Below, one piece after another: positions 4,301-21,124 of a DNA stretch of 64,000 nt (the first letter of the stretch is position 1; the number at the start of each line of letters is the position of its first letter). This stretch comes from Lutjanus erythropterus (lineage: Eukaryota > Chordata > Actinopteri > Lutjaniformes > Lutjanidae). The notes beneath the pieces are model-generated. The model was not told the origin of the DNA, made no database searches, and saw only the letters and a program-made list of their open reading frames with translations. Location: contig CM034613.1 in the NCBI GenBank assembly GCA_020091685.1, forward strand, positions 139,177-203,176. Direction: 5' to 3'. Made by a program: the position numbers and the translations under genes.

Positions 4301-4384
4301 CTTTAGGGTCTGTCAGAATAGTTCCCGAACCTGATCTTATTCTGTGTATAGCTTGGAGGCTTGGATGTGCCTCAGTTGACAAAA
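1331..4384 (-). mobile_element. L1-like LINE, 5'-truncated and decayed
   Basis: Translation of the minus strand gives pieces of an L1-clade ORF2 in the right order. Near 4282-4070 is a reverse-transcriptase entry region (LSPEAVALLDREVS, then a PDGF-like block). Near 3692-3378 are palm-region fragments (GFGKVFIDWIRILY). Near 3317-2952 is the thumb-like block (PLSLVGRINAIKMVVLPRFL). Near 2289-1903 is the C-terminal knuckle (CDKCKNQAGTLTHQLWTC). No endonuclease domain is present, so the copy is 5'-truncated. The poly(A) tail lies at the low-coordinate end, seen as a T run near 1331-1344. Frames are broken many times, so it is an old dead insertion separating the two copies of the 1.3-kb duplication. 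Confidence 0.85.
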
Positions 4385-5165
4385 ATACCTAAGTAAAGAA
4401 TGTGAGTATTTTTTCCATCACAGCAGGTCAGTGATCAGTGTTTCAGTGACTCTCTGTGGATCAGTGAATAGTGTTTTATTTATGGCAGCCCGCCACATTA
4501 AAAACATCTGCACCAGGACATGATTTCCTATTTTTGGAGCTGCGCACCTTTTTCGGTCGTGTCTAGAAGGTAGCTCTTTATTTGCACAACTCGCGCAATC
4601 TTTCGCGGGTCTAGGGTTCCCTTCTAGACACGACCCTCTCTGTGTCTCTGTCAAACTACAAACAGCAGACTGTCTGTAAACAACACGATGTTACACTCTG
4701 CAGAGTTTCATACAAAGACTTTATTTGTGTGGACATCCAGGTTTGTTTTGTCACCAATTTTTGCATTTTTATTTTTTTTTTATTTTGGCATCAGTGATTG
4801 ATTAGTGATCAGTCTGCCCTCCTCTCCTCCCTCACCTGTTCACTCTGCTCACAGAGAAACACAGACTCTCCTGTTTTACGTATAGGCCTCCTTATACAGT
4901 TGTTTAATTTTATAAGAGCATCTGGTTGGTGTCGATGTCATTAACCATCACGTTAGTTTCTGTTGTAATAAACTCTGTCATTAACAACAGTCTCCTCCAC
5001 ACACAGCTTCTCTGCAATTGGTCTGTGCGTTTCCTGATCAGCTAAACCAGCACCAGAAAGACTAGAAAAGTTGCGCCAGTTAAAATAGAAGCATCCCGTA
5101 AAAAAAATAAAATCTATTAATAATTCACTGGTTGTAGGTCCGGGTCCGTATATGACGGCGTCTGG
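4385..5165 (-). mobile_element. hAT-family fragment, same family as the nested hAT
   Basis: Read on the minus strand, this segment matches 11680-12535 over nearly its whole length, including blocks such as CTGATCAGGAAACGCACAGA and GGTGAGGGAGGAGAGGAGGG. The full copy at 11632-13373 has hAT-type ends. This one lacks both ends. At its low-coordinate side it stops against the LINE, and at its high-coordinate side it joins different hAT DNA. No transposase frame was recognised in the shared segment, so it is probably part of a non-autonomous family. Confidence 0.75.
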
Positions 5166-5451
5166 GTCCGAACTCGGCCACACATCTGGCAGATGACATT
5201 TTTTTGCTCAACATCCGACTTTTTAAACCCGAACCACGTCCAAATCATGGATGTAGCACGTTTCTTTTTTTTTTGTTGTTGTTTTGTTTTTTACCAGCCC
5301 CTCCTTCTCCGCCGTTACTGTGCTTGCAGCCATTTTCACACCAAAGCAGGTGTGATGACGTCATCGACGGTATGATGGCAGAGCACAAATCTCTACCGTG
5401 GCCAAATTTATATAGTTTCTACCGTCATACCGTGTATACCACGCAGCCCTA
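5166..5451 (-). mobile_element. 5' end of a second hAT with BED-finger start
   Basis: On the minus strand the element opens at 5451 with TAGGGCTGCG, a hAT-type terminus. About 120-290 bases in, it encodes pieces of a BED zinc finger: WTWFGFKKSDVEQKNVICQM, then C, with the CxxC pair visible. This is the usual N-terminal DNA-binding module of hAT transposases. An upstream start (MAASTVTAEKEGLVK) is in another frame, so the reading frame is already broken. The segment is cut off at about 5165, where unrelated hAT sequence begins. The rest of the transposase is missing. Confidence 0.6.
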
Positions 5452-5504
5452 CTATCTATCAATCCATTGCGGTTGACAACATATTTTTGGGCTTTCTGCT
5501 GATT

Positions 5505-6855
5505 TTTTGGCTGTACTTGTTTATCTTTGTTTGCTCAGCCCTGTTTATCTGGAGGAAGATGAGGCTCTTGAAGAGGCAATTCAGCGTAGTCTTCTAGAAG
5601 AGTTTGATGGACCTGCTGTTCAAACTTTAAAGTAAGAGTTACAAGTAATTTTTTATTACAGTAAATATCTTCTTTATACCAGTGTAAACATTGCAAACAA
5701 CATGGAACAGTTATGAAGCTCAGCGTAAGTTCAATCAGGAAGACCTTCTATTACGCTGCCTTCATTCATAGCTTTCCTTTATTCCGTCTCTCTCCTCCCT
5801 CTAATCAGCTGTTGTGGGCGTTCACCTTCGTCTTTACTATCCAATCAGATTTTGCCATGGTTGCGATAGCCAGTCAATTTGCTGCTGCCAAACTTTAAAT
5901 CGCCTCTGTCTTTGCTCCATCAGTTGTCATTCAGTCAGTCGCGCAACTGGCTCATGTTTTACTCACCATTCGCTCCCTGGTGCACCTCAAGTGATTCCTA
6001 CCACAACCTCGATTCCCTCGAGGGCTTCAGCCCTGACTTCCTCCCTCTCTTCTGATGGCCTCCAGACGAGGCCGAGCTTCTTATCCCATATTCGTGAACC
6101 AGCGTTCTCCTGCAGCGGGCATGCACTCTTCCAAATCGCGAGTTGGCCGAACAAGTGCTGTGTTCATCAGAGTTTGCTCCCAGGGCAAGATTCAACGTCA
6201 GTCGGCCCCTGCCGTGTGCTCACGGCCACTAAAAACCAGGAAACCAGGCTTCCTAAGCGATGAGAGGAGGCCTCCACTGCACTTCGATCTCTGCTCCCTC
6301 CTCTCCTCTATCCCAGGCGCCGTGGACAACTCCTTGCCCTCCTCCCTGCAGTCTACCGACTCTACTCATGCCATCGACGCATGCCTCCAAGCGCTGGAGA
6401 CCGCCTCAACCCGTCCGCTCCTTAGTGTCTCTGTGCTGCCAGGCCCCATGCTGCAGTCACCCTCCGCTACGGGAACCTCTCAGGTTCCCCGGCTTCAGCC
6501 GTTCCAGACCCTCCTAGGTAGGCCGTATGCAACTCAAGCAGCAAATATATCCAGCGCATGAGATCAGTTCTCCAAGGTAGACAATAACTTGGGTAGCCTT
6601 TTCATGCATCCCCCGAGTGCGTTAAGCATGGCCACAAGGAAGCATTACTGCTGTGTTCAAAACTGCTGATCCCGGCTGATCATAGATTATCTATTGGGCA
6701 TTATTATTTATCGGCCTTGCATATATCGTATGTATCTGTCAGTCTACCAGGAGAGCAGGCAGAACTGATGCTATTTGGCCTAATCAGCGACCTCTATATC
6801 TGTATGGAAGGAACATTATTTATTAAGCCTTCTCAGTAAAGTATAGCACACGAGA
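5505..6855 (+). repeat. Copy 2 of the 1.3-kb direct duplication
   Basis: This block repeats 1-1330. It contains the intact UIM exon (5539-5631) followed by sequence that would be intron of the HECT-like gene. A reading frame of 168 codons is open on + at 6055-6561, starting MASRRGRASYPIF. Copy 1 is disrupted across the same stretch and I do not recognise the product. A short frame at 6628 (MATRKHYCCVQNC, then stop) resembles the start of a THAP-type zinc finger in its C-x4-C spacing, but is too short to call. Both copies end near the same place, after a GTAAAGTATAGCACAC block. Confidence 0.9.
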
Positions 6856-6959
6856 TACTTAAGGAAGGATAATTATTATTTGGCCGTCCGCACCTCACTC
6901 CGGCCCCGTCTCTTGCGCGACCAGCCTTTACATTTGAGCTTTCTCTCTTCACTACACCA

Positions 6960-7138
6960 TGTATAATGCCATCAAATGATAAGTTGATGGGCTCAGGTGC
7001 TAGCTTTCTAAGCAGGTATCATAGATTCGTTCAAGCAGCCCATTCATTCGTTCTGTGGAATCTGTGGCATCAGGAGGGATTCCAACACTTGCCATGCGTC
7101 TTCTCGGCTGTTGCAGCCCAAGCAGACCTGTAACTCTG
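6960..7138 (-). other. Coding-like fragment, product unknown
   Basis: On the minus strand a frame reads GLLGLQQPRRRMASVGIPPD, then ATDSTERMNGLLERIYDTC, with a stop shortly after and another about 20 codons later. The composition looks protein-coding, not random, and an acceptor-like CTCACAG precedes it. I do not recognise the family. It lies inside the long first intron of the HECT-like gene, on the opposite strand, so it is most likely a remnant of another inserted element. Confidence 0.35.
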
Positions 7139-8869
7139 TGAGATGAAGTTCAAGTGTCTTATTGTCCTTATGCTTACATATAACGAAATTTCATTTAGTA
7201 GTTCTCGGCACATAGTTACGATAAAAACACACAATACAAATAATAATAATAATATTAATAAATAAACCTAGTAACATAATATGTGCAAGAGTCGGCAGCC
7301 ATACAGGGAATAATATGTTGATAGGTAAGTGCAATCAGAGTGAGTCCAGTCCTCCCTTTAGAGAACTACAGTCATGATTTCCAAATTTCTCCTGCACTGT
7401 CATACATAACAAAATTGCAGTTCTCTCCCTCCATGAGCTTCTCAACTTCGTCAGCGCATCATCCTCAGAGTCGCCCCTATTTAGCTCCTGGACATGGCGT
7501 CCTCTGTGCCAATCTGCAGGATATATCTCTCAGATGAAGGCTGCACTCTGACTGTATGGTGTCTTCCTGCTAGTTCACTGGATGGCGCTCCCTCTATACG
7601 AGCTGGTGCAGTCCTCTGATTCTTAGTTTTTTTTGGGGGGTGGGGGTTTCATGGATGCGGGTCTATCCGTAGTTTCGGGGGTGTTTTCTTCAAGGCAGTG
7701 GTCGCTGCCACCGGCCTCCCTCCTCTGACAGTTTAGATCGCTCCCTGCGCTATAAGAGATATATTAATTCAGTGTCATGCCAGGTTTAGGGGCTTGCAGG
7801 AAGTGCAAATCCTGTGAATACTGAATAACCTGTTCCAGATGATCTGAGGGGTCTGCTTCTTTCATACCAGTAATCAGATGTATTTAGGCCTAGACCTTTC
7901 AGTGCTTTATAGACAAGTAATAAGAATTTAAGTCCTGAGAAGCATCATGTAGTCTTCATCATTTCAACTCTTTAGCTGATGCTCTCTCCCATCAATTCCA
8001 GATTTTCCGACAACTTGCCCAGGTGCCAGCAGTTCTTGCTTAAGGCTCACACCCAAGGTCCCTTCTTCCCCAGACTGTTTCAACCTTGCTAAGTGTTGTT
8101 AAGAGTGTTTCAGTTCTCCTAGTATACCCGGTCACTCTGTCCATTCAGTTCTATTTGTGTAGGTGTTATAGCTCTCAATATGCAGTTTTCTCTCTACATG
8201 GACTCGACGCAGTATTCATTACCACACCTACTTCTTCTCAATCATTTACCCTAATATAGTCATCACGTTAGATCTGGCTTCATTTCATCACTACCGTCAA
8301 GTCCTGATACTTAATGCGGCAGCGCATGCTTTGTGTCGTGTCGTTGAAAAAAAAAATGTATATATAATAAAATTAAAAACTAAATAAATAAATAAATAGA
8401 TAGATAGATAATTAAATAAATATAAAATTTGACCAATCACGCGCAACCCTCCTCCACCCCTCTCTCCTCCAGTCATTGGACCCAGGTAGCAGAAGATGTT
8501 CACCTTGATCCTCCCCGACGCCCTCTCCTCCAGTCTTCAGGTCCAGGCAGCAGGAGTCCGGAGCCACTTCACCTCATCTGTCTCTGCTTTGCACCTCACC
8601 ACCACCACCAGTGTCTAGATCCCGGGGGGGTTCTCTTCACTACAGCTTCATCACCCCCATTTATATATGTGCATATTGTTTCACCTCAATGGGGTCTAAC
8701 CACCAAAGACTTTTCATGTTTCATATCTCATGCGTGTACCAATAAACCATTTTCTTTAACTCTTAGTCTCTCCTGATTGAAATATCATCATGCACTGAAG
8801 GTGATAGTGGAGTAAATGCACAGATATCCAAAAGTCTGTTTATCTTTGTCGTTGTCTTTTTCAATATAG
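7139..8869. other. Intronic DNA of the HECT-like gene, mixed repeat remnants
   Basis: No gene was recognised. Around 7150-7290 there is a stretch of the type found at the 3' ends of fish retroposons (TTATTGTCC, ACGAAATTTCATTTAG, then an AAT-rich tail). Around 7860-7945 there is a segment resembling a common fish interspersed repeat (CAGTGCTTTATAGACAAGTA). An AATAAA lies near 8740 after a C/T-rich block, but no convincing exon was found with it. The exon acceptor at 8869 ends the stretch. Confidence 0.5.
8348..8423. repeat. AAAT/GATA microsatellite
   Basis: A run of A and AT-rich sequence passes into AAATAAATAAAT, then GATAGATAGATA, then AAATAAAT. It is a plain tetranucleotide microsatellite. 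Confidence 0.8.
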
Positions 8870-10841
8870 ATCATCTGAAATGCTGAGCAAAGAAGAAATT
8901 GCAGGCCTTCTACAAGCTCACAGTGACAGAGTTATTACATCGGGAACAAGACAGATTTAGATCAGTCGAGCCAATGTTTGGACCACAGTTTTACGTCAGT
9001 TTAAGAGACCCAGTTTTGCAGAAAGCTGTGACATGCTCTATGTCACATTTGCAAGTGATGAACATCATGCTGATGAAGATGCTGCTGACTTTGGGGGCCC
9101 CAGACGAGAGTTTTTCCGCTTACTGGGGAAGGCTATCTTAGAGGACAGTGGAGCTTTTGAAGGTAATGAAATTATTATGTAGTCTGAAGGCTCACAAGTG
9201 AGTCAGCATTAATGGGTAAATTAGTTCTCTTTGATTTGTACCAGTATGGTCTCTGATTTTTATTTTAAAAAGTTTCACTTAAAACTGCATTTTGTAGATT
9301 GTGGTTGAAGAAGAGAAAATAGTTTTGTGCTTACCTTGCCACAAATATTGGTTTGGAACGTCAGAGTACATGGTACAGAATGCGCTGTAACTTTATTTAA
9401 TCTTTCAGGCACATCAAATGGATGCACACCAAGACTGAACATTCTCCACTTGCAAAAAGGATTATATCGAACCATTGGTAGGATGATGTCAACAATAATA
9501 GTGCAAGGTGGTGAACCGCCTGCATTCCTGTCCCCGAGTGTAGTCGACTACATTGTGTCTGGGGACATCCTTCAAGTTCATGTGACACCTGATGACATAG
9601 GGGACCCTGATATAAGGGAGAACCTCAATACGGTAATGTGGATTCTTCTGATCTACCAAATAAATAACTAAAAATTCCTACTTTTGTTGTCATAGGTAAG
9701 TGACTATTAAGTGAAATACACAGTCTACGCAGTTCTTCTGTAAATGTTGATTAAATGCAGTAATTTGAGAAAATAAGATTTAAAAGATCTGATCTGTAAT
9801 ATCTAGGTTCAACATGCAACCTCGGAGGACGATTTGGAGAAAGCAGTCAGCTGTGACTCATGGCGATATCAAGTCGAGGGTCTTCCACTTGTAGTCACCA
9901 TGGCCAACAGAGATGTGTTTGTGAAAAATGCAGTTCTATACCATACTGTTGTGCAACGGCAGAGCTGTCTTGATCAACTCATTGATGGCTTGTCCCACTT
10001 TGGAGTAAGATTTACCTCACAATTCTGTATCATATTTGCTCCATGCTGTGGCTAAATTACTAAAAGTAAATGCCATATTTAACCATAACTACTCATTTTA
10101 TGGCCTTTAATTTATGGTGTTGAATTTCCCTCCAGGTTTTATCACTCCTGAGAGAGAACCCCAGCTTGCGTGTGCTGCTTGACATGCCTGAAGAGGACAA
10201 ATGTCTAGCAGCTGATTTTGTAGCTGCTATTCTGAAACCAAGCTACTCCATACTGGGAAGCAACAGAAGAGCAAGGGAGGAGTTGATTGTGGTAAAATTT
10301 AGGGAGTTTCTCCAGTGTGTTGAAAGTAGTGTTGCTTTCGTCAACGAAAATTATGACGAAATATCGTCGTCAACGAACCTTTATCACGTGACGAAAACGA
10401 GACGAGACTAAACGTAAATGATGGTTATGTGACAATAACTATAATAAAATATATAATGCAATATTGTTGACGAATAAAAACGAGACAAAATGTGGTTTAC
10501 AAAATAAAAACTCTGCTAAAATGTCTCTTCATTTTCGTTGACCAAAACGAGATGAGATGAAATAACGTTTTAATGTTTAGTTGAGTTTATTATTTTGCAG
10601 TATTTCTGTTTCGTAGGCTGTGCGCTGACGCAGACAACGTCACTTCAAATCCACATTGGCGGCATTATTTAGATGCAGCTGCGGTCGGATCATGGCCGGG
10701 CAGCCGGGGAGAAAACGAAGACATGATATATGGACATACTTTGAGTTCAAACTGTAGTGGTATAATTTTCAACATGATGTCCATCCAACACAGAGTCCTC
10801 TTCATCCAGTATAAAGTTCACTCAATTCTGATGTAGAGTAC

Positions 10842-11372
10842 TGTTAGGTGCTTTCAAAGGGAGTTGTAATGAAAAGGCCTAACCACAGTATCAATCATTG
10901 TCACCCAAGGAACTTGTTGGTACTTTCCAAGCACCTGGTGCTCACCACTCAGACCAACTGTCAAACCAGCTGTCCTTTACATGTTAAGTATTGATTTATA
11001 TTGTCATTTGACTATTTTTAAAAAATATAGGATTAATTCGTGCAAACCTAAGGGAAGCAGCAATTTGCTAGAAAATGAATGGTATTATGATTCTATAAGG
11101 TAAAATTTGATACACAAATATGTTTGACCTTAAGCCAAAATGTCTAAAGTGGGAGGAGGCTTCTAGAGCCTCCAAAATAGTATATAATAGGGTGTTTTGC
11201 ACCTCTTTCTTCAGTCTAACCCTGGGTTTGGCTCATGCTTGTTGATTTTTCTACTTAGAGAAGTCAATAAACTTTTTGTGGCAGAACTTGTTGGTCTTCC
11301 AGTGATTTTTCCAGACTTTGCCTGATTCTTCTTTTTGATGGTCTGAACTTTGAAAATATACAAGTGATAACA
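10842..11372 (+). mobile_element. LTR-like block, candidate solo LTR
   Basis: The block begins TGTTAGG and ends GATAACA, giving short TGTTA/TAACA inverted ends. It contains a TATA-like TATATAATAGGG near 11180 and an AATAAA near 11265 in the order expected of an LTR. No internal coding region accompanies it. I see no convincing target duplication, so its edges are provisional. It lies within the outer hAT, between the two pieces of BED-finger coding sequence, and so must be younger than that element. It is a fossil fragment. Confidence 0.4.
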
Positions 11373-11631
11373 GTGTTTTTTTACTAAGGTTTTTAGGGTG
11401 TTGTGGCTTTAAGCCCAGACCTTACTGGCCTATTTTTCTGAGGTTTTTGTCACAACAAAACAAGTGGAAAACAAAATGGAATGTGACGTGGAAAAAGATG
11501 GGGAGAAATGCAACCACAAAATAACGGGGAAAAATGCAACAAGTTTATGAGGTAACAATATAATAATAAGATAACCATGTTTGATTTGTGAAATGGGTTT
11601 GACTAAAAGAAAAATCTGGTTTTGTCTATAC

Positions 11632-13373
11632 CAGGGGTCCCTAACAGGCAGACCATGGTCCGAGTCCGGACCCACACGCCGTCCTATATGGATCCGGACC
11701 TATAACCAATAAATTCTTAATAGATTTTAAATTTTGACGGGACACTTCTGTTTTAACTGGCGCAACTTTTCTAGTCTTTCCGGTGCTGGTTTAGCTGATC
11801 AGGAAACGCACAGACCAACTGCAGAGAAGCTGCGTGTGGAGGAGACTGTTGTTAATGACACAGTTTATTACAACAGAAACTAACGTGATGGTTAATGACA
11901 TCGACACCAACCAGATGTACTTCTAAAATTAAACAACTGTATAAGGAGGCCTATATGTAAAACAGGAGAGTCTGTGTTTCTCTGTGAGAAACTTTCAGAC
12001 CTTCTCACAGCAGAGTGAACAGGTGAGGGAGGAGAGGAGGGCAGACTGATCACTAATCAATCACTGATACCGTCGTCCTCTTGGACTGATTAGAAAATAT
12101 AAATGACAAAAGTTGGTGACAAACCAAACCTGGGTGTCCACACAAATAAAGTCTTTGTGTGAAACACTGCAGAGTTCAACATCGTGCTGTTTACAGACAG
12201 TCTGCTGTCTGTAGTTTGACAGAGAGACAGAGAGGGTCATGTCTAGAAGGGAACCCTAGACCCACGAAAGATCGCGCGAGTTTGATTATTTTAGTAGAAA
12301 TAACGAACACAAATCTCGCGAGAGTTGTGCAAATAAAGAGTTACCTTCTAGACACGACCGAAAAAGGTGCACAGCTTCAAAAATAGAAAATCATGTCCAT
12401 GGTGTCGATGTTTTTAATGTGGCGGGCTGCCATAAATAAAACACTATTCACTGAACCACAGAGAGTCACTGAAACACTGATCACTGACCTGCTGTGATGG
12501 AAAAAATACTCACATTCTTTACTTAGGTATTTTTACATTGTGGTATTAGTGTTTTTACTGAACTACAATTTTAAAAGTTTGCATGTCATTGTGTCCTTTT
12601 TTGAAAAATCAACACTTTTATTGCTGTTGTTGTACTTTAATGGTATTCTTATCGCTATTTTTTGATGACTAAATACAGACCTGCAAACTCATAAGAGAAG
12701 AAAAAGGTGGTATGTTGGTAAACCAGTCCCCTGTCCCCTGGGGGTCTGGGAGCGTCCTGCTCCAGAAGAAAAATCTTATGATTTTAACATGTTAACAAAA
12801 CATTCTGGTGACTGTTTCAGTTAAAAGAGTTAGTTCCATCTTCTGTTTGTGGTTTCTGCAGACATTACTACCTTTTTTACTTTTACTTTTACCTTTGTAC
12901 TTGAAAAAAAGTAGAAAGTAAATTAAAAACAGTAAAAGTAAATCTACAGCAAAAGTAAAGTTACTTTACTGAGTATTTTTACTTTAGTAATTTATAGTTG
13001 TTCATTTAATAGACCTGTCTTATCTTCTCTTTTGTATATTACCATTGTTGTTAAATAAAGCAAAAGTAATGTAATAGAAAAAAAATGCAGAACACGCAAT
13101 ATTTCTTATCTGATTACTCGATTAATCGGCAGAATAATTGATAGATTATGCTTTAATTTTATTGGTTCGGCCCACTTGAGATCAAATTGGTCTGTATGTG
13201 GCCCCTGAACCAAAATGAGTTTGACACCCCTGATATATACGTTGATACAACTACTACACTACTTCAGTATACATCACTCTCATAACACAAGTTAGACATT
13301 ATGATGTTGCGGACCTTTGCTTTAGGAAATTTTCTCTATCTGGACCTCTTTGAATTTTAGTTGAATACCCCTG
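11632..13373 (+). mobile_element. Nested non-autonomous hAT with exact 8-bp target duplication
   Basis: The element starts CAGGGGTCCC and ends ATACCCCTG, giving a 7-bp perfect inverted end CAGGGGT. It is flanked by the exact 8-bp duplication GTCTATAC (11624-11631 and 13374-13381). These are hAT features. No transposase was found. Inside are a piece of a common fish repeat (TTTACTTAGGTATTTTTACA and TTACTTTACTGAGTATTTTT, about 12500-13010) and an internal hAT-like end (GAGTTTGACACCCCTG, ending near 13232), so it is itself mosaic. A partial copy in opposite orientation lies at 4385-5165. The insertion sits inside the outer hAT. Confidence 0.85.
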
Positions 13374-14461
13374 GTCTATACTATACTAGGAAATTATACT
13401 AAATTGATTGGGTTAAATAGAATTACATTACTAAAAAGAGAGTAAAATACAATTTTCATTGACTAAAACTAGATTAAAATGTCATCGGTTTTCATAGACT
13501 AAAACTAGACGAAAATAGTCATGGGTTATTCTGACTAAAATAAGACTAAAATGCTCAGACTTTTAGTCGACTAAAACTCGACTAGACAAAAAAAGAGTAT
13601 GAAGGTGACTAAAACTAATAAAAACTAAAATGACAGTTTGACACAAAGACTAGACTAAAACTAAAATCAAAACAGGCCGCCAAAAACAACACTAGTTGAA
13701 AGTAAGTATTTATAATTCAGTATATTATACGGCAATCCAGGACATTTACAGATTCATTTTATTCTTTACAACTAATGAAGCTGTGCTGATCTAATGTTTA
13801 TGTACCACAAACAAGAGTACAGTTGTTATCTGATTGCTTGTAATAATAAAATTGCTTTTTCACCAAAATACCTATACAGTAATCCATCAGTCCCGCAATT
13901 ACTCACTGATCTAGTCTTTCTTAAACCTGAGTATTTTCAAGTCTCCATGTCATCACTGGTTTCCCTTTGCTTTTAGATAAAGAGCTGAGAGACACATATG
14001 GGGACAGGACTCTAACCAAGGATGAGGCGGCATTCCTGAAGACTTTGAGTACTGGCATTTGCTACAGGGAGCAGCAAAGTCCCAACAATTGGTTTTCATC
14101 CAACTCCTAAATTAACATTTATTCATGATGAAAACAAACATCTTCCCATTGCACACACTTGTGTTAATGAGCATCAGCTTTTTGTGAACACAACAACAGT
14201 GGCTGATGATGATGAATTTAACTACTGTTTCTTAGTAGCACTAACGAATGGATCTCCATTCAGCACCATTTAAACAAATGTGAGGGTTTCACTCTTTAGT
14301 TTCAGATATGTGGTGCCATTACTATTTTTGGTGTCTAAAACTGGACTTAAGTATTGTGCTTTGAGATATTTAACAGCTGCCATTAAAAGTACAAGTAAAT
14401 AATTTTTTGCAAGCACAACTCAAGCATAAATGTACTGTCCTAGTTTTGATTTTTACTGTTA

Positions 14462-14939
14462 ATCTACGTTCCTACCCTCACCTATGGTCATGAACTCTGG
14501 GTCATGACCGAAAGAACAAGATCTCGGATACAAGCGGCTGAAATGAGTTTCCTCTGCAGGGTGGCGGGGCGCTCCCTTAGAGATAGGGTGAGGAGCTCTG
14601 TCACCCGGGAGGAGCTCGGAGTAGAGCCGCTGCTCCTCCACGTCGAGAGGAGTCAGCTGAGGTGGCTTGGGCATCTATATCGGATGCCTCCTGGGCGCCT
14701 CCCTAGGGAGGTGTTCCGGGCATGCCCCACTGGGAGGAGGCCCCGGGGAAGACCCAGGACACGCTGGAGTGACTATGTAGCTCGGCTGGCCTGGGAACGC
14801 CTTGGGGTCCCTCCGGAACACCTGGAGGAAGTGTCCAGGGAGAGGGAAGTCTGGGTGTCCCTGCTCAGACTGCTGCCCCCGCGACTCGGCCCCGGATAAG
14901 CGGAAGATAATGGATGGATGGATGGATGGATGGATCTAC
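14462..14939 (+). mobile_element. RTE-clade LINE, 3' end only
   Basis: A 131-codon frame (14504-14899) is open and matches the C-terminus typical of fish RTE-type elements: MTERTRSRIQAAEMSFLCRV, then LRWLGHLYRMPPGRLPREVF, and RRPRGRPRTRWSDYVARLAW. It is followed by a (GGAT)n tail ending near 14935. A short ATCTAC lies at both ends (14462-14467 and 14934-14939) and may be the target duplication. Everything upstream of the reverse-transcriptase C-terminus is missing, so this is a 5'-truncated, immobile copy. The open frame suggests a fairly recent insertion. It lies just past the end of the HECT-like gene. Confidence 0.85.
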
Positions 14940-17080
14940 TAATAATTTACTAGAATAAGTTCATTTGTAAAAGAACCCCTGGTGTGTAATACACCATTGT
15001 TTAGTGCAGGGCTCTCACTGTTTGTCAAACCAGGCTGCTGTAGCATTCTGTGTTCCCTCTGCTCCTCTCATGGTAACAACCCTTCCACTACAGCCCAGTG
15101 CTTGATTGTGTCCATATGTAAGTGTAAGTGTTTGTTTACCTTGAGCAGGTGATTTCATAGAGGACGTAGGTTCATATTATACAGCGGTTGTTTCAATGAC
15201 AATACATAAGAAAGCTGAAAATAAGCTGAAAAAAACTATAGCTTGTGTTTCCCATCTTGTGGTCATATTTTCTGGTTAAAGCTCTTTTGCAATAAAAATG
15301 CAACATGTGCTATACGCATTAAGTGAATAAATCTTTCACTTCCTGATTTCTGTAAATCAACAACCAGTACATACAATCATTATAGCCTGATCAGAAATAA
15401 TATGAAAATAAATTAAGTAGCTATACTTGCACAAGAGTGTGCAACCATAGCCCCTTAAGTTCAATATAAAGACTAAGGTTTGGCTGTAGCTATTGGTAAA
15501 AAAAAAAAAAAAAGATTAATAGGGCTGTCAGTTCTGGTTTCTATTGTTTCTGTGTGATGTATTATTAATGCTTATAGTGAAAACAATGTACTTTTGTAAT
15601 ACAAGTTGTTGCGAATATGATTTGCAAAGTGGGATTTACTTTATGTTGTAATGTATGATTCAAAGGATGGAATCGTTCATCTGGGTAATAAATGACAAAT
15701 GTAGTTTAACCTTGTGATATGTGTTTTTTTTTCTCTTTCTTTTTAACAATGATGGTTGATGAATTTAACTACCAGGGTTTAATATTTGGCAAACAGTAGT
15801 GAAGGAATGGAATGATGTACATTTACTCAAATTAGGTACCTCATTAGAAATTTTGGGTACTTTGTTACGACCCACAGGAGTCTCTCTGTGTGCGTGTCAG
15901 TGAGTGAGTGGGTGATGTTCTACAGGTGCGGTGCCAACACCAGCGGCTGATTGGTCTGGCTGCCTTTATAAGGAGGAACATCTGGGCCGGCCCACTGTCA
16001 TTCCTCCTCTGCTCCCAACTCCTTTGTGTTTGTTTAAGTGCATGCAGCAGTAGGGGTGAGCTGCCCTTTTCTTCTTTGTTTTCTCCTGTGTTTCTTAAGT
16101 AGGGTTAGTTAGTTAATTTATCAGATTATAATTCTTAATCCCCCTCCTTACCATTAAAAGCCATGTATATTCAGATTTATTGATGTTCAACATTTTTGTG
16201 ATAAAAAAAAAATCCTTCTATTCATACTCAAGCTAGATAAACTCTTTACAAAACCTTTTGGATTAGCTGAAAAATGCATCATCACAAACTTAAAAACTTT
16301 TTTTTCTGAGTTTATGAACAGCCATCTTCTCAGAGATGCATGATATAGGTACAATAGTTATGCATGTGATGTATAAGTTAAAATAAAACACTGACAGGTA
16401 TGATTTTACTTCACTGAGTAGTTTTACTTTACATATATACGTACATTTTTCTTTCATACTTTTTTTGACAATGCATTATTTTCACCGTTGCTAAACTGAT
16501 CCATGTTGTGAATGAATTAAAGCTGCAATATATTTGTTCAGTGTATGTTAAAACTCAAGTTAATATTCACAATATTGTATATTCCATTTTCTTCAAATGT
16601 TGCAGTCGTGTCACAGAGATTGATGAAAGCAGCATAATGTTTGCAATCACAGGGTAACTTCTTATATGTTTCAAGCTGAATATTTCACTGAAGAAATTAT
16701 GTGCAATGTAATGGAAGACAGTTATAAATGTATCAAAACATCTGTAGAGCCCTGAAGAGTATTTAACTGTTCTTTCACATAACAGGAGTCATCTTGTATT
16801 TGTCCACTGTACCATTGCTTTTGGCTTGATAGAACATTCAGTAGCAGTTGCCAAAGTGTGTCTGTAGCCTTTTTTAACACATACAGCAACTATGTGCCAT
16901 CATGTAATTTTTAAACATTTATACGCTGGCAAGGGAGAATTAGAAGAAAAAAGGGAGCAGCTTTAAATCTTGCAGTTCAAGAAGCACAATAAAACATCAA
17001 TATTTGCTTCACAGTGTAATTTTTGAAAGTACAATGAGGCTAATGTTACCCAGCTGTCCGTGTAATGTTGAGATCACACA
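14940..17080. other. Intergenic DNA between the HECT-like and integrase genes
   Basis: No gene was recognised over about 2.1 kb. The sequence is AT-rich. A locally GC-richer patch at 15865-16080 contains a TATA-like TTTATAAGGAGG and could be a promoter or LTR remnant, but nothing confirms either. Poly(A) runs at 15500 and 16205 are unremarkable. Confidence 0.5.
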
Positions 17081-17081
17081 T

Positions 17082-19412
17082 TTACAAGTTTATCAAAAAT
17101 AAACTGTGGTGTTCTCTGAAACAGTGTTTTGCCATTGTTGTTGTCATTTTGAAGAGGGTTGAAATGGCATCATTCAGTTCTTGCAAATCCCTGTCATTCA
17201 ATGGGGAAAATCCTCTCTGAGAGTTTGCTGAGGAACAAAAAAATACTCCCGCTGTTGGGAGTTCTGGGTTGTGAAGATGAGGCAAATCATTGTCAAGAGT
17301 AAAGAGCTGAACTGGTGTTCTATTTCCTTCAGATGATATAGAGTGATTGTAATATCCAGCTTTGAATTCCTCCAAAGTGCAGTTGATTCTGGGTAGAAAG
17401 ACATAATGGAGACAAAAGAGGTCTGTTGCATTGTCTGTGTCTAGGATACCCAGGGATTCCAGTTCATAAAAAATGGGTGCATAAACATGGCTGCAGTTTT
17501 TGTTTAAGTCTCGGTTGAAACGCTCAATCCTCTGGTTGTGCACAGAACTTCCTGTTAAGATAGAGCCTTCACCCCTGCTCGCATGCATGTCCTCCCAAAT
17601 ATGACCGTTCTCGCCTCCGTGATCAGTCCTGATGTGCAGTGGTCTGCCAAACTTTCCAACAGCTTCAGTAAAGAGATGTCTCACAGTTTTAGCACGATTA
17701 TTGTTGGAGCAGTGAAGAAACATCAACATCCTACTGTAGCCATCGATGGCACCATGAACGACCAATTTCCACCTAATCAACTTATGATTTCCGTCTACAT
17801 GCCATATGAAATTTTGGATGTGGGACAGAGTATACTCGCCGAGCTATTGCTGTTCTTCTCCTGGCTAGGACACCAATTGGGTCCATCCTTCACAGTGAAT
17901 CTCTTACACGTTGTCTTTGAACCACAACGTTTTTGGAGCGTAGATGCCCCATAAGCATCACTTCTCCCACATTTGGGTGTTCAGTTTTTATTTGAGACAC
18001 TTCAAGAATTGTTGGTCACTGATGCTCTTAAATTTTGACGTTGGGATATTATAGTATTGCAGTAACTTGTAGAAAGTTGGCCTTGAGATTGAAAGAATAG
18101 ATGTCGCTTCTGTAGAGGTGGTTTTCAGTTTAAGAACATGTTCAAGCTTCTCTTTGGAAATCTGATGTCTTCCTGGGTAGTCATTCTAGAACACAGCAAA
18201 GAATATGATATTTGGCATGTCTCTATAACAAACATGGGTTATTTAAGAGACAGTTATAGACATAACAGATGAACATTCACATCTACTCATTATCTTTCTA
18301 ACTGAAAAGAATTATATTATTGTAACTGTTAATTATATAATTGTACTGTACATTTATTTAAGGAATGTTTAACTAAATAAAATGGACATTAAAAAGATGA
18401 GGTAAATGAGCAATAAATCAAACATGAACATGACTATTATTGAGTACTGATGACATGTCAATGGGGCAAAGTGTGTTGCTGGTAAAGGTATGGTAGCGCT
18501 GGAGCCCTGAGGAAATTTGAAATATAAACAAATTACCTAAGTTGTTATTATTTTGTCATGGTGTTGTGTAAAATATGCCACCATGGTTGGAAGTAATGTG
18601 GAAACAATACACCACACAGATTTAAAAACACAAACAGCCAGCTAGGTTACATGAGTATGAAAGTATACCAAGCGGTGTGATGTCCCAGTGGAGGTGGAGG
18701 GTGTGGCAGGCCCAGGTGTGTTAGTGTTGGGAGCCTGAAGAGACATTGACAAAATATTATTATTACAGAATAATGTTGTTGTTTTCTTTTATGTATTTAT
18801 AGGCCCAGCAGGTAAAAACCAGAGATGTGATTGGCAAAGGACAAAAAGCAGGAACATGTAAAGAGAGATACAGTACATTCTATGCTTTTTCATGCACTGT
18901 GGTACCTTATTCACGTTAAAATTAAATGTTTTTCTCATTAAGACTGCCTCTGTCCTCCATCAGCATTACTCTCTCTCTCTTGCCGAGCAGATAGCTTAAC
19001 AGTTAGAACAGGTAAGCCGAGGTGACATGATGGGGGACAGAGTCAGATTTCCATCTGGCCAACAATTTACAGTGTAATTTGGTGCCCTGAGGGGAGACAG
19101 TAGCCTCCGTTAGCTGTAACTAATGCTCTATATGATCTGCTCTGCTCCTCAGAATTTCTTCACGTAATCTTGAACTCACATTTACACATCTTGTTTTTCA
19201 GTTCATTAACTCGCACCACTTGGTCAACACGGTGTGAGCTTTATGCCCATTTATGCTGCTGCTAAGTAACGTTACCCGATGCTACATGATTTGGAAAACA
19301 CACTTACCGAGGTGGCCTGTGGTGGTACTGGCCCTGTGGTGGTTGCCGAAAATGTACGAATGGCCGCCAAAACGGCTCTCCCGATGTTTTCAGCTAACGC
19401 CGATTCGGCCAT
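17082..19412 (-). pseudogene. Spliced DDE integrase-core transposase gene, broken
   Basis: A first exon at 19412-19308 begins MAESALAENIGRAVLAAIRT and ends at GTAAGTG. A second at 18734-18669 (APNTNTPGPATPSTSTGTSH) has good splice sites and continues in phase. The large last exon (18185-17082) encodes a helix-turn-helix region (ISKEKLEHVLKL, ILSISRPTFYKLLQ). An integrase core follows, with the acidic triad visible in WHVDGNHK, RTDHGGENG and QRIERFNRD, then DLFCLHYVFLPRINCTLEEF. This matches a eukaryotic integrase-core transposon family, possibly the one called IS3EU, but the superfamily assignment is uncertain. It would act in the nucleus to join element ends to target DNA. The copy is broken in a few places. 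Element ends were not found. It converges on the HECT-like gene. Confidence 0.75.
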
Positions 19413-19774
19413 GCTAGCAGGGCATGGATGACCAACAGCAGACTGCACCGGAGGATGGCAGGCGGGGGTAGATCAGTCAAAGTGCGCTCCCTTGTGACTG
19501 ACTGTAGTGGCTACAGATTATAAGCAAAAAAGTGACACTAAAAACTCAATGTACTCGCAAAATATAGTTTCTCCAAACGGGTTTGTTATTTTGGGTAGTT
19601 GTTATCACTGTAATCTATGTCCAAGAGTCAATTTCTCCAGAAAAGATTGTTGTTTATTTGTTATTTGACAATATAAACAGACTTTGACCTCCTCAAGCTT
19701 TTATTTTGGTACTTCCGGTTGCCAGCATCTTGAATTTGAATATTAGTTAAATATTTAGTTTCACCCAAAACATT

Positions 19775-20305
19775 TAGATTTAACTTTTAGATTAAACATT
19801 TAGATTTAACATTTAGATTTAGATTTAGATTTAACATTTAGGCGGAACATTTAGATTTAACTTTTAGATTTAGATTTAACATTTAGATTTAGATTTAACG
19901 TTTAGATTTAGATTTAACTTTTGGATTTAGATTTAACTTTTAGATTTAAATTTAACATTTAAATTAAACATTTACATTTAACATTTACATTTAGATTTAA
20001 CATTTATGCGTACCATTTAGATTTAGATTTAACTTTTAGATTTAGATTTAACATTTAAATTAAACATTTCCATTTAACATTTAGATTTAGATTTAGATTT
20101 AACTTTTAGTTTTAGATTTAACATTTAGATTTAGATTTAATTAGCCCTGCGATGAACTTGCGACTTGTCCAGGGTGTACCCCGCCTCTCGCCCAATGTCA
20201 GCTGGGATAGGCTCCAGCAGCCCGCAACCCTTACGGAATAAGCGGTTACAGAAAATGAATGAATGAATTTAGATTTAATTATTTAATAAATTTTTAAATT
20301 TAACA
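19775..20305 (+). repeat. Hexamer/heptamer tandem repeat (TTTAGA / TTTAACA)
   Basis: The tract is built from TTTAGA and TTTAACA units in irregular order, with drifted variants (TTTACA, TTTCCA, TTTGGA). The units are short and unevenly ordered. The SINE fragment at 20137-20272 lies inside it, and ATTTAGATTTAA-like sequence occurs on both sides of that fragment. Confidence 0.85.
20137..20272 (+). mobile_element. SINE 3' half inside the satellite
   Basis: The segment GATGAACTTGCGACTTGTCC through GATAGGCTCCAGCAGCC to AATAAGCGGTTACAGAAAATG matches the 3' half of the complete SINE at 21800-22170. It ends in AATGAATGAATG. The tRNA-like head is missing, so it is a 5'-truncated insertion. Confidence 0.85.
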
Positions 20306-21124
20306 AATATTGTGTTTAATGTGCTAAAAAGTGACTTTCAAAAATTCACACCACTTTTTAAAACATGATTTGAAGCTAAATGTGACAAAATGTTGCTGTT
20401 ATTTTCAGCATGAGCACATTTTCTAAATGGCACCCCATAGGTTTATGCTCTGTTATGTGTGCACACAATTTAAATGGCCATTAAACAGTGTAGCACTACA
20501 CATACCTCTTGCGTTGGGCGCCGTGTGATGATCCGATGTCAGATGTTCCACAGCCAGCTTTAGCCTTAGCACCGTAGCTCCTCCACCTGCACACCCGTGG
20601 ATGACCGCAGACGTCCTACAAACCGCTGCAACAATCCATGCAGCTCCCAGCAGCTCTCCTCGTCGCCTTGTACGAAGCTTACAAACAAAAATCCAACTGA
20701 TGCTGGGTTTTTGACAAATTGAAGAAGCTAGCCTATTACTTAGCCACTGACACGGTCTCAGACCCCGGAGTGATCTGGCTGACGCGCTCGACTCTTTGCT
20801 TATAACCATACGCTGTGCTGTTCCTTGAATGAAACCACAGGTTGTTCTTAATTGCAGCAAAAAACAATTTATTTTCTTCATGCAAATATGAACGATGTCC
20901 ACTGTTGTTTCAAAAAAAGACCAAACATTCAGCATACGGTGTGACAAATATTTTTGCGCTGTAGCGGTCAAACACCTGACAACGACAGTAACCCTGCTAC
21001 CTTTACACCTGAGCATTACAAAAGTACAGCGATACCCCATGTTCAAAACAGTGAACTACAAGTGAAACCTTGGAATATTTCACCAACATATTTGGCTCCT
21101 ACAAGTAGTATTAACAATATTGCT

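Follow-up and report, generated by a model that had tools for sequence, protein, structure and literature searches.

At the start of the stretch of Lutjanus erythropterus DNA examined here, a window of 64,000 nucleotides that corresponds to C23:139177-203176, lies what we consider very probably (roughly 0.9) to be a decayed two-gene DNA transposon of about 27.35 kb and of the IS3EU kind, in which an integrase gene and a gene for a HECT ubiquitin ligase converge. The figure covers the element and its two-gene make-up, and the target of the ligase is outside it. Both genes sit between inverted repeats, and their pairing and convergent layout recur in the 938-Mb assembly of the same genome, against which all searches were made. 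A related, young two-gene family has transposed, leaving 6-bp target duplications. The original prediction, that two broken genes within positions 5539-19412 might form one large mobile element, is supported, since inverted repeats enclose both genes and the pair recurs in the genome. The predicted interval does hold both genes, but it is only the interior of the element, which extends from C23:132265 (window coordinate about -6911) to window position 20439 and has long terminal inverted repeats (TIRs) on both sides.

The integrase gene is located on the reverse strand at 17085-18186, its upper edge placed by eye, and starts with weak helix-turn-helix matches that are followed by an rva_4 DDE core. 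The core is an open stretch of 253 amino acids (17085-17843, reverse strand) with 216 bits to the Pfam family PF24764 (rva_4; cut-off 26) and 34.8 bits to rve, and it contains the acidic triad D17-D74-E107 in the numbering of this stretch, with 32 residues separating D74 and E107. In the N-terminal part upstream of the core, the Pfam matches, including the helix-turn-helix, are weak and below the cut-off, and the gene is disrupted by a frame change and a stop upstream of 17843. Its first exon (MAESALAENIGRAVLAAIRTFSATTTGPVPPQATS) at 19308-19412 on the reverse strand is placed within the right inverted repeat. The same exon with its splice donor is present on the forward strand of the left arm and is a candidate for the first exon of the HECT gene. 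This first exon, MAESALAENIG... with the donor GTAAGT, is thus common to both arms, and the two genes may therefore share a promoter and an N-terminus.

The HECT gene on the forward strand consists of a UIM exon at 5539-5631 (Pfam UIM_2 11.7 bits, below the cut-off of 21) and five exons within 8870-14273, the edges of which were set by eye at AG/GT sites. The first of the five, with the DFGGPRREFF block (8870-9162), contains an in-frame stop and has no Pfam match on its own. It is followed by an N-lobe exon (9409-9632) with 62% amino acid identity to C10:18909-19130(-), an exon at 9807-10004 for which the genome search matched its own place only, an exon at 10136-10325 with 68% amino acid identity to C10:2518-2715(-), and finally the C-lobe exon (13977-14273), which contains the catalytic cysteine in an HTC motif and has an internal frameshift. 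The genome match to PF00632 at C23:153216-153356 (29.8 bits) corresponds to window positions 14040-14180 in the C-lobe exon. When searched singly, this last exon gave a weak match to PF00632 (E 0.017), and the other four exons gave none to this profile. We take the exon blocks to be G2E3-like, as in the earlier proposal. The tail-to-tail arrangement of a UIM/HECT gene and an integrase gene that had been proposed is confirmed, and both genes are indeed broken.

The two arms of the element are about 2 kb long. The right TIR (18558-20439, reverse orientation) has its outer end at 20439 (..GGCACCCCATA), where the terminus reads ..CCCCATA and is followed by GGTTTA, and the left TIR, in the opposite arm, covers approximately -6911 to -4492 (C23:132265-134684), beyond the left edge of the window. 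In the inner part of the arms (-6205 to -4492 and 20140 to 18558), 1480 of 1543 aligned columns are identical with gaps excluded (96%). The blastn pieces show 89-93% identity with gaps and the outer blocks 94-95%, and the whole 172-base end block is just 78% identical because of a gap. Both arms have a subterminal tandem array of TTTAGATTTAAC-type units (19735-20300 in the right arm), which another repeat interrupts at approximately 20143-20270. The hexamer GGTTTA next to the right terminus (20440-20445) resembles the GGTTTG duplications of the young family described below, and the left end has no matching copy. A seemingly perfect TIR with an AATATT duplication at -5756/19749 was rejected as an artefact inside the longer repeat, AATATT being a palindrome. 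The terminal block has eight matches in the genome, including the two of the window itself. One of them belongs to a C3 derivative of 600 bp whose two ends read TATGGGG..CCCCATA and whose flanks (CTTCAG/CTTGAG) match at five of six bases; the window terminus was also found as single ends on C10:41.42M and C7, as a CTCCATA end on C21 and as a partial match at C10:7.55M.

Full copies of the young family are located at C16:30893770-30900753 (6,984 bp) and C13:1061144-1068929 (7,786 bp including a nested insertion). Between the two copies, two blocks align with 99.1% and 99.9% identity, and the flanks are unrelated. Each copy has the termini TACGG..CCGTA and inverted repeats of 121 bp that contain three mismatches, and is bordered by GGTTTG at either end. 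The ligase is encoded in a stop-to-stop frame of 682 residues (PF00632 25.0 bits, cut-off 23.9) and the integrase in a convergent stop-to-stop frame of 322 residues (rva_4 82.7 bits), and the C16-type integrase is 29-31% identical to that of the window. There are 97 genome matches to the C16-type terminus, overlapping pieces counted, many of which come from short derivatives. We examined 10 of the 12 short derivatives listed (about 385-511 bp; on C17, C15, C14, C9, C5, C22, C1, C20 and C11), and all ten ended in TACGG..CCGTA and were flanked by an exact duplication of 6 bp, each with a different hexamer. Exact 6-bp target duplications were thereby observed in 12 of the 12 copies of this family examined, two full and ten short. 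Furthermore, a C16-type terminus and an rva_4 match at C8:2564668-2565393 are separated by about 0.4 kb and probably represent another element of the C16 family.

In a third element, on C2 (498.3-509.6k), a HECT gene and an integrase gene are enclosed by repeats about 940 bp long, in which 906 of 911 aligned columns are identical when gaps are excluded (94% when they are counted). Its ends read AATGG../..CCATA and its flanks, GAGAGA and GATAGA, agree by eye at five of six bases, a duplication that is weak evidence because it is located inside simple repeats. A scan for the TAYGG..CCRTA pattern with matching flanks recovered the C13 and C16 copies, an inner match in the C2 element and one chance-level pair on C23, and gave no ends for the elements at C7:141k, C7:289k/C21, C177 and C19. 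Of the two properties of the ends expected from the original prediction, the first, shared ends, was observed in the window and on C13, C16 and C2 as inverted repeats around the two genes. The second, a target duplication of fixed length, was found in exact form in the young family; none is demonstrable at the window copy because its left end differs.

Published IS3EU elements have TA..TA termini and lack an HHCC motif, and their target duplications are usually of 6 bp (PMC10045372); those of rust fungi have TAYGG..CCRTA ends and TIRs longer than 30 bp (PMC12730594). The C13/C16 family resembles them in termini, TIR length and duplication length. The termini are those of IS3EU in both full copies and in all ten short derivatives, and at the right end only in the window; the 6-bp duplication is found in the C13/C16 family, at five of six bases in the C3 derivative and in the C2 element, and is missing in the window; and the TIRs are longer than 30 bp throughout, with 121 bp in C13/C16, about 940 bp in C2 and about 2 kb in the window. 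Since the young family fits the published termini, TIRs and duplications, we interpret the window locus as a decayed two-gene IS3EU-like transposon, an assignment made from termini, TIR length, duplication length and membership in Pfam rva_4. The window family differs from IS3EU in the length of its inverted repeats, 2 kb, and in the tandem array inside them, and the word HECT occurs zero times in the two articles (PMC10045372; PMC12730594). The rust-fungal elements that carry TET genes are similar in having accessory genes, with an alpha-kinase gene opposite in orientation to the transposase and a TET/JBP gene in between (PMC12730594), whereas the partner in the fish is a HECT ligase.

The recurrence of the gene pair was examined with both profiles. 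The 30 genome matches to PF24764 were collapsed by hand to 22 loci and the at least 120 matches to PF00632 to 42 loci; both numbers are lower bounds, and for PF00632 129 of 155 candidates were scored. Five of the 22 rva_4 loci (window, C10:1k, C177, C7:289k and C7:141k) are located within 20 kb of a HECT locus, compared to an expectation of 0.039, and all five Pfam-detected pairs are convergent, as had been anticipated for a single element. The probability of this pairing is 8e-10 under uniform placement and 5e-5 (0.39 expected) if all loci are confined to 96 Mb; the window pair prompted the test and counts among the five. It is hardly credible that the two genes are chance neighbours, that is, unrelated repeats or pseudogenes, since this explanation, although favored by a window start rich in nested and duplicated repeats and by at least 9 of 22 integrase loci less than 1 Mb from a contig end, which raises chance proximity, is refuted at the family level by 5 of 22 pairings where 0.04 (or 0.39 if confined to 96 Mb) would be expected, by the convergence of all five and by two near-identical copies that hold both genes within one set of inverted repeats. 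The accumulation near the ends of chromosome-sized contigs (C7, C2, C23, C21, C19, C10 and C17) may be a general pattern for transposons.

With a more sensitive C-lobe model, made from seven C-lobes, we scanned 14 of the 22 integrase loci, 11 with wide flanks and three with flanks of 1.5 kb. A HECT C-lobe faces the integrase at 9 of the 11 wide-flank loci; C21 is a held-out case (47 bits) and C13 is a near-copy of C16. An A.TC motif surrounds the catalytic cysteine in all seven aligned C-lobes, although their identity to that of the window is otherwise 15-67%, and the C-lobe on C21 reads ANAC with the cysteine kept, so that this residue is present in 8 of 8 C-lobes examined. PF00632 is recognized at the five paired loci and in the C16 frame. 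Ligase and transposase occur together in six divergent families: window/C10, C177, C7:289k/C21, C7:141k, C13/C16 and C2.

Several observations weigh against the two-gene transposon. The left end of the window copy begins GGGGTGCC, with the three terminal bases TAT missing and no target duplication, and the arrival of both arms in one insertion is therefore something that we infer; we take the loss as later damage, and this is the weakest step of the argument. The recurrence counts have a single genome as their whole basis, and the C-lobe model is circular for the seven loci from which it was built. With this model, two of the 11 wide-flank loci (C19:33.41M and C7:5.37M) were without a HECT match, and likewise no HECT was found at C10:11.26M, C11:38.59M and C1:48.15M within the 1.5-kb flanks scanned. 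The HECT genes on C2, C21, C13 and C16 were absent from the PF00632 matches of the genome search. The whole ligase frame of C16 had no significant tblastn match to the other loci (best E 0.51), and the evidence for its kinship with the other ligases therefore comes from the HECT profile and the alignment of C-lobes. The integrase at C7:141k is a fragment of 53 amino acids at about 40 bp from the ligase and may be a deletion product. Finally, the identities of the integrases and the HECT proteins are uncorrelated among seven sequences (Mantel test, 340 of 5040 permutations; without C10, r = -0.28, 655 of 720), and strict co-descent is therefore not claimed; there may have been gene exchange between families, or the sample may be too small.

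The closest relatives of the window genes were identified on C10. A search of the genome with three joined HECT exons (E<=0.001) gave five places, three in the window plus C10:2518-2715(-) and C10:18909-19130(-), and a search with the integrase exon gave 15 places including the window, with C10:85-755(+) at the very start of the contig being the sole other with more than 45% identity. The only close relatives of both genes thus sit together on C10, and the closest copies share the tail-to-tail order. Between the window and C10 (1-10000 and 17409-26000 compared), the exons alone can be aligned, with approximately 71-75% DNA identity. The ratio of nonsynonymous to synonymous differences per site (pN/pS) is 0.25 for the HECT gene (197 codons, 95% bootstrap interval 0.19-0.33) and 0.18 for the integrase gene (171 codons, bootstrap interval 0.13-0.24), with synonymous sites near saturation in both. 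From this one comparison, we read purifying selection as having acted on both genes prior to their breakage.

Such selection would also be expected of a host gene pair, a G2E3-like ligase and a domesticated integrase, spread by segmental duplication, and the loci C7:289k and C21, which are 82-98% identical in blocks over some 10 kb without clear outer ends, could be seen in the same light. We nevertheless consider this very improbable, as the C13 and C16 copies and the short derivatives have common end points, inverted repeats and 6-bp target duplications, the flanks of C13 and C16 are unrelated, and the window copy is broken, as are the integrases on C10, C2 and C7:5.37M. Within a two-gene transposon, the ligase could instead be captured cargo that serves the element in no way, in keeping with the integrase loci without HECT on C19 and at C7:5.37M and with the short derivatives that moved without either gene. 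This we regard as improbable, because the ligase has a constant position and orientation across diverse families, all eight C-lobes have kept the cysteine although the seven aligned ones are otherwise 15-67% identical to that of the window, and the HECT pN/pS of 0.25 (0.19-0.33) between the window and C10, in a single comparison near synonymous saturation, suggests constraint.

Several further features were noted in the region and elsewhere in the genome. A nested hAT-like insertion at 10327-13694 with the ends TAGTGTTG..CAACACTA is flanked by the 8-bp duplication GTTGAAAG (10319-10326 and 13695-13702). Its insertion point coincides with the splice donor of HECT exon four. It holds further repeats, is not part of the original element and accounts for the gap between the HECT exons. 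Inside the element, a tandem duplication (-1090 to 1332 and 4387 to 6860, 94.3% identity) contains the UIM exon, and a second copy of this exon is therefore found on the forward strand at 33-125 (edges approximate), in a frame that differs slightly from that of the 5539-5631 copy. Inverted copies of one repeat family are located at 4381-5180 and 11656-12534 (87-96% identity), with relatives at C7:5.378M (84-93%). Between the two genes there is a repeat fragment (14472-14922) with a GGAT simple-repeat tail and copies in the C13 and C21 loci that are 94-97% identical; it is presumably the 3' end of a long interspersed nuclear element. Near the C10 copy (C10:20-21 kb), we noted a reading frame that resembles a piggyBac transposase by its motif. 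Two identical integrase fragments of 1480 bp on C10 and C11 (554-2033 of L019/L020) start with TACAC and have unrelated flanks; no HECT was found within 1.5 kb of them and no clear TIR pair. One scan of viral contigs confirmed no relatives.

A link between integrase-like transposases and the ubiquitin system has been described before. In Ginger1, the transposase is tied to the ubiquitin/SUMO system, and the authors of that study have proposed that this pathway takes part in transposition (PMC2836005). Ginger1 differs in that its transposase ends in an OTU or Ulp1 protease and in its CCGG/CCGT duplications, whereas the elements described here have a separate, convergent ligase gene and duplications of 6 bp rather than the 4 bp of Ginger1 and most Ginger2 elements; a Pfam scan of the C16 integrase frame revealed no OTU and no Ulp1 domain. 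The Transib-type elements with RAG1-like and RAG2-like genes likewise combine a transposase with a separate second gene, but the transposase superfamily and the second gene are both unrelated to those found here. RAG1 and RAG2 are ordered tail to tail. Among the HECT genes of fish, the exons appear to resemble the G2E3-like ones. The unclassified repeat candidates in Cottus include one with a blastx match to G2E3 (PMC5638112), which fits a HECT-carrying element; it was filed as unclassified, and the word integrase occurs zero times in the passage concerned (PMC5638112). Among the papers listed from the open-access full texts searched, with Repbase and most subscription journals outside the search, none describes an integrase-type DNA transposon with a HECT ligase.

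We can envisage a scheme in which each repeat arm supplies one copy of a common promoter and first exon, from which the two genes would be expressed. The transposase would cut and join at the TAYGG..CCRTA ends, as expected from what is known about the family, and the ligase would be a working accessory protein that ubiquitylates a host or element protein during transposition. One hypothesis is that it acts on its own transposase, either to limit its level or to disassemble the complex after the reaction. The presence of the ligase together with the transposase in six divergent families is consistent with this idea, as is the RING domain of RAG1 with its ubiquitin-ligase activity and autoubiquitylation (PMC4411706). 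We consider it possible but rather doubtful, as the divergence of integrases and ligases is uncorrelated in the seven sequences and thus, in a small test, provides no support for tight co-evolution of enzyme and substrate. A host target, such as silencing or repair factors, appears somewhat likelier by analogy, and may with about even odds be what the ligase of the two-gene transposon acts upon.

It is already known that transposons may carry de-ubiquitylating or de-SUMOylating proteases (PMC2836005). With an element that has its own, separate and conserved HECT ligase, there would be a defined enzyme with which to test whether ubiquitin has the role in eukaryotic transposition that is suspected. 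Should fish have as many G2E3-like HECT genes as the earlier proposal states, a transposon origin would be a simple reason, and many such gene models would be transposon genes. We tentatively suggest, at slightly less than even odds, that HECT-IS3EU elements represent an old lineage of animal transposons with ubiquitin ligation as a standing second function, and that much of the multi-copy set of G2E3-like HECT genes annotated in fish may consist of second genes of such elements or captures from them.

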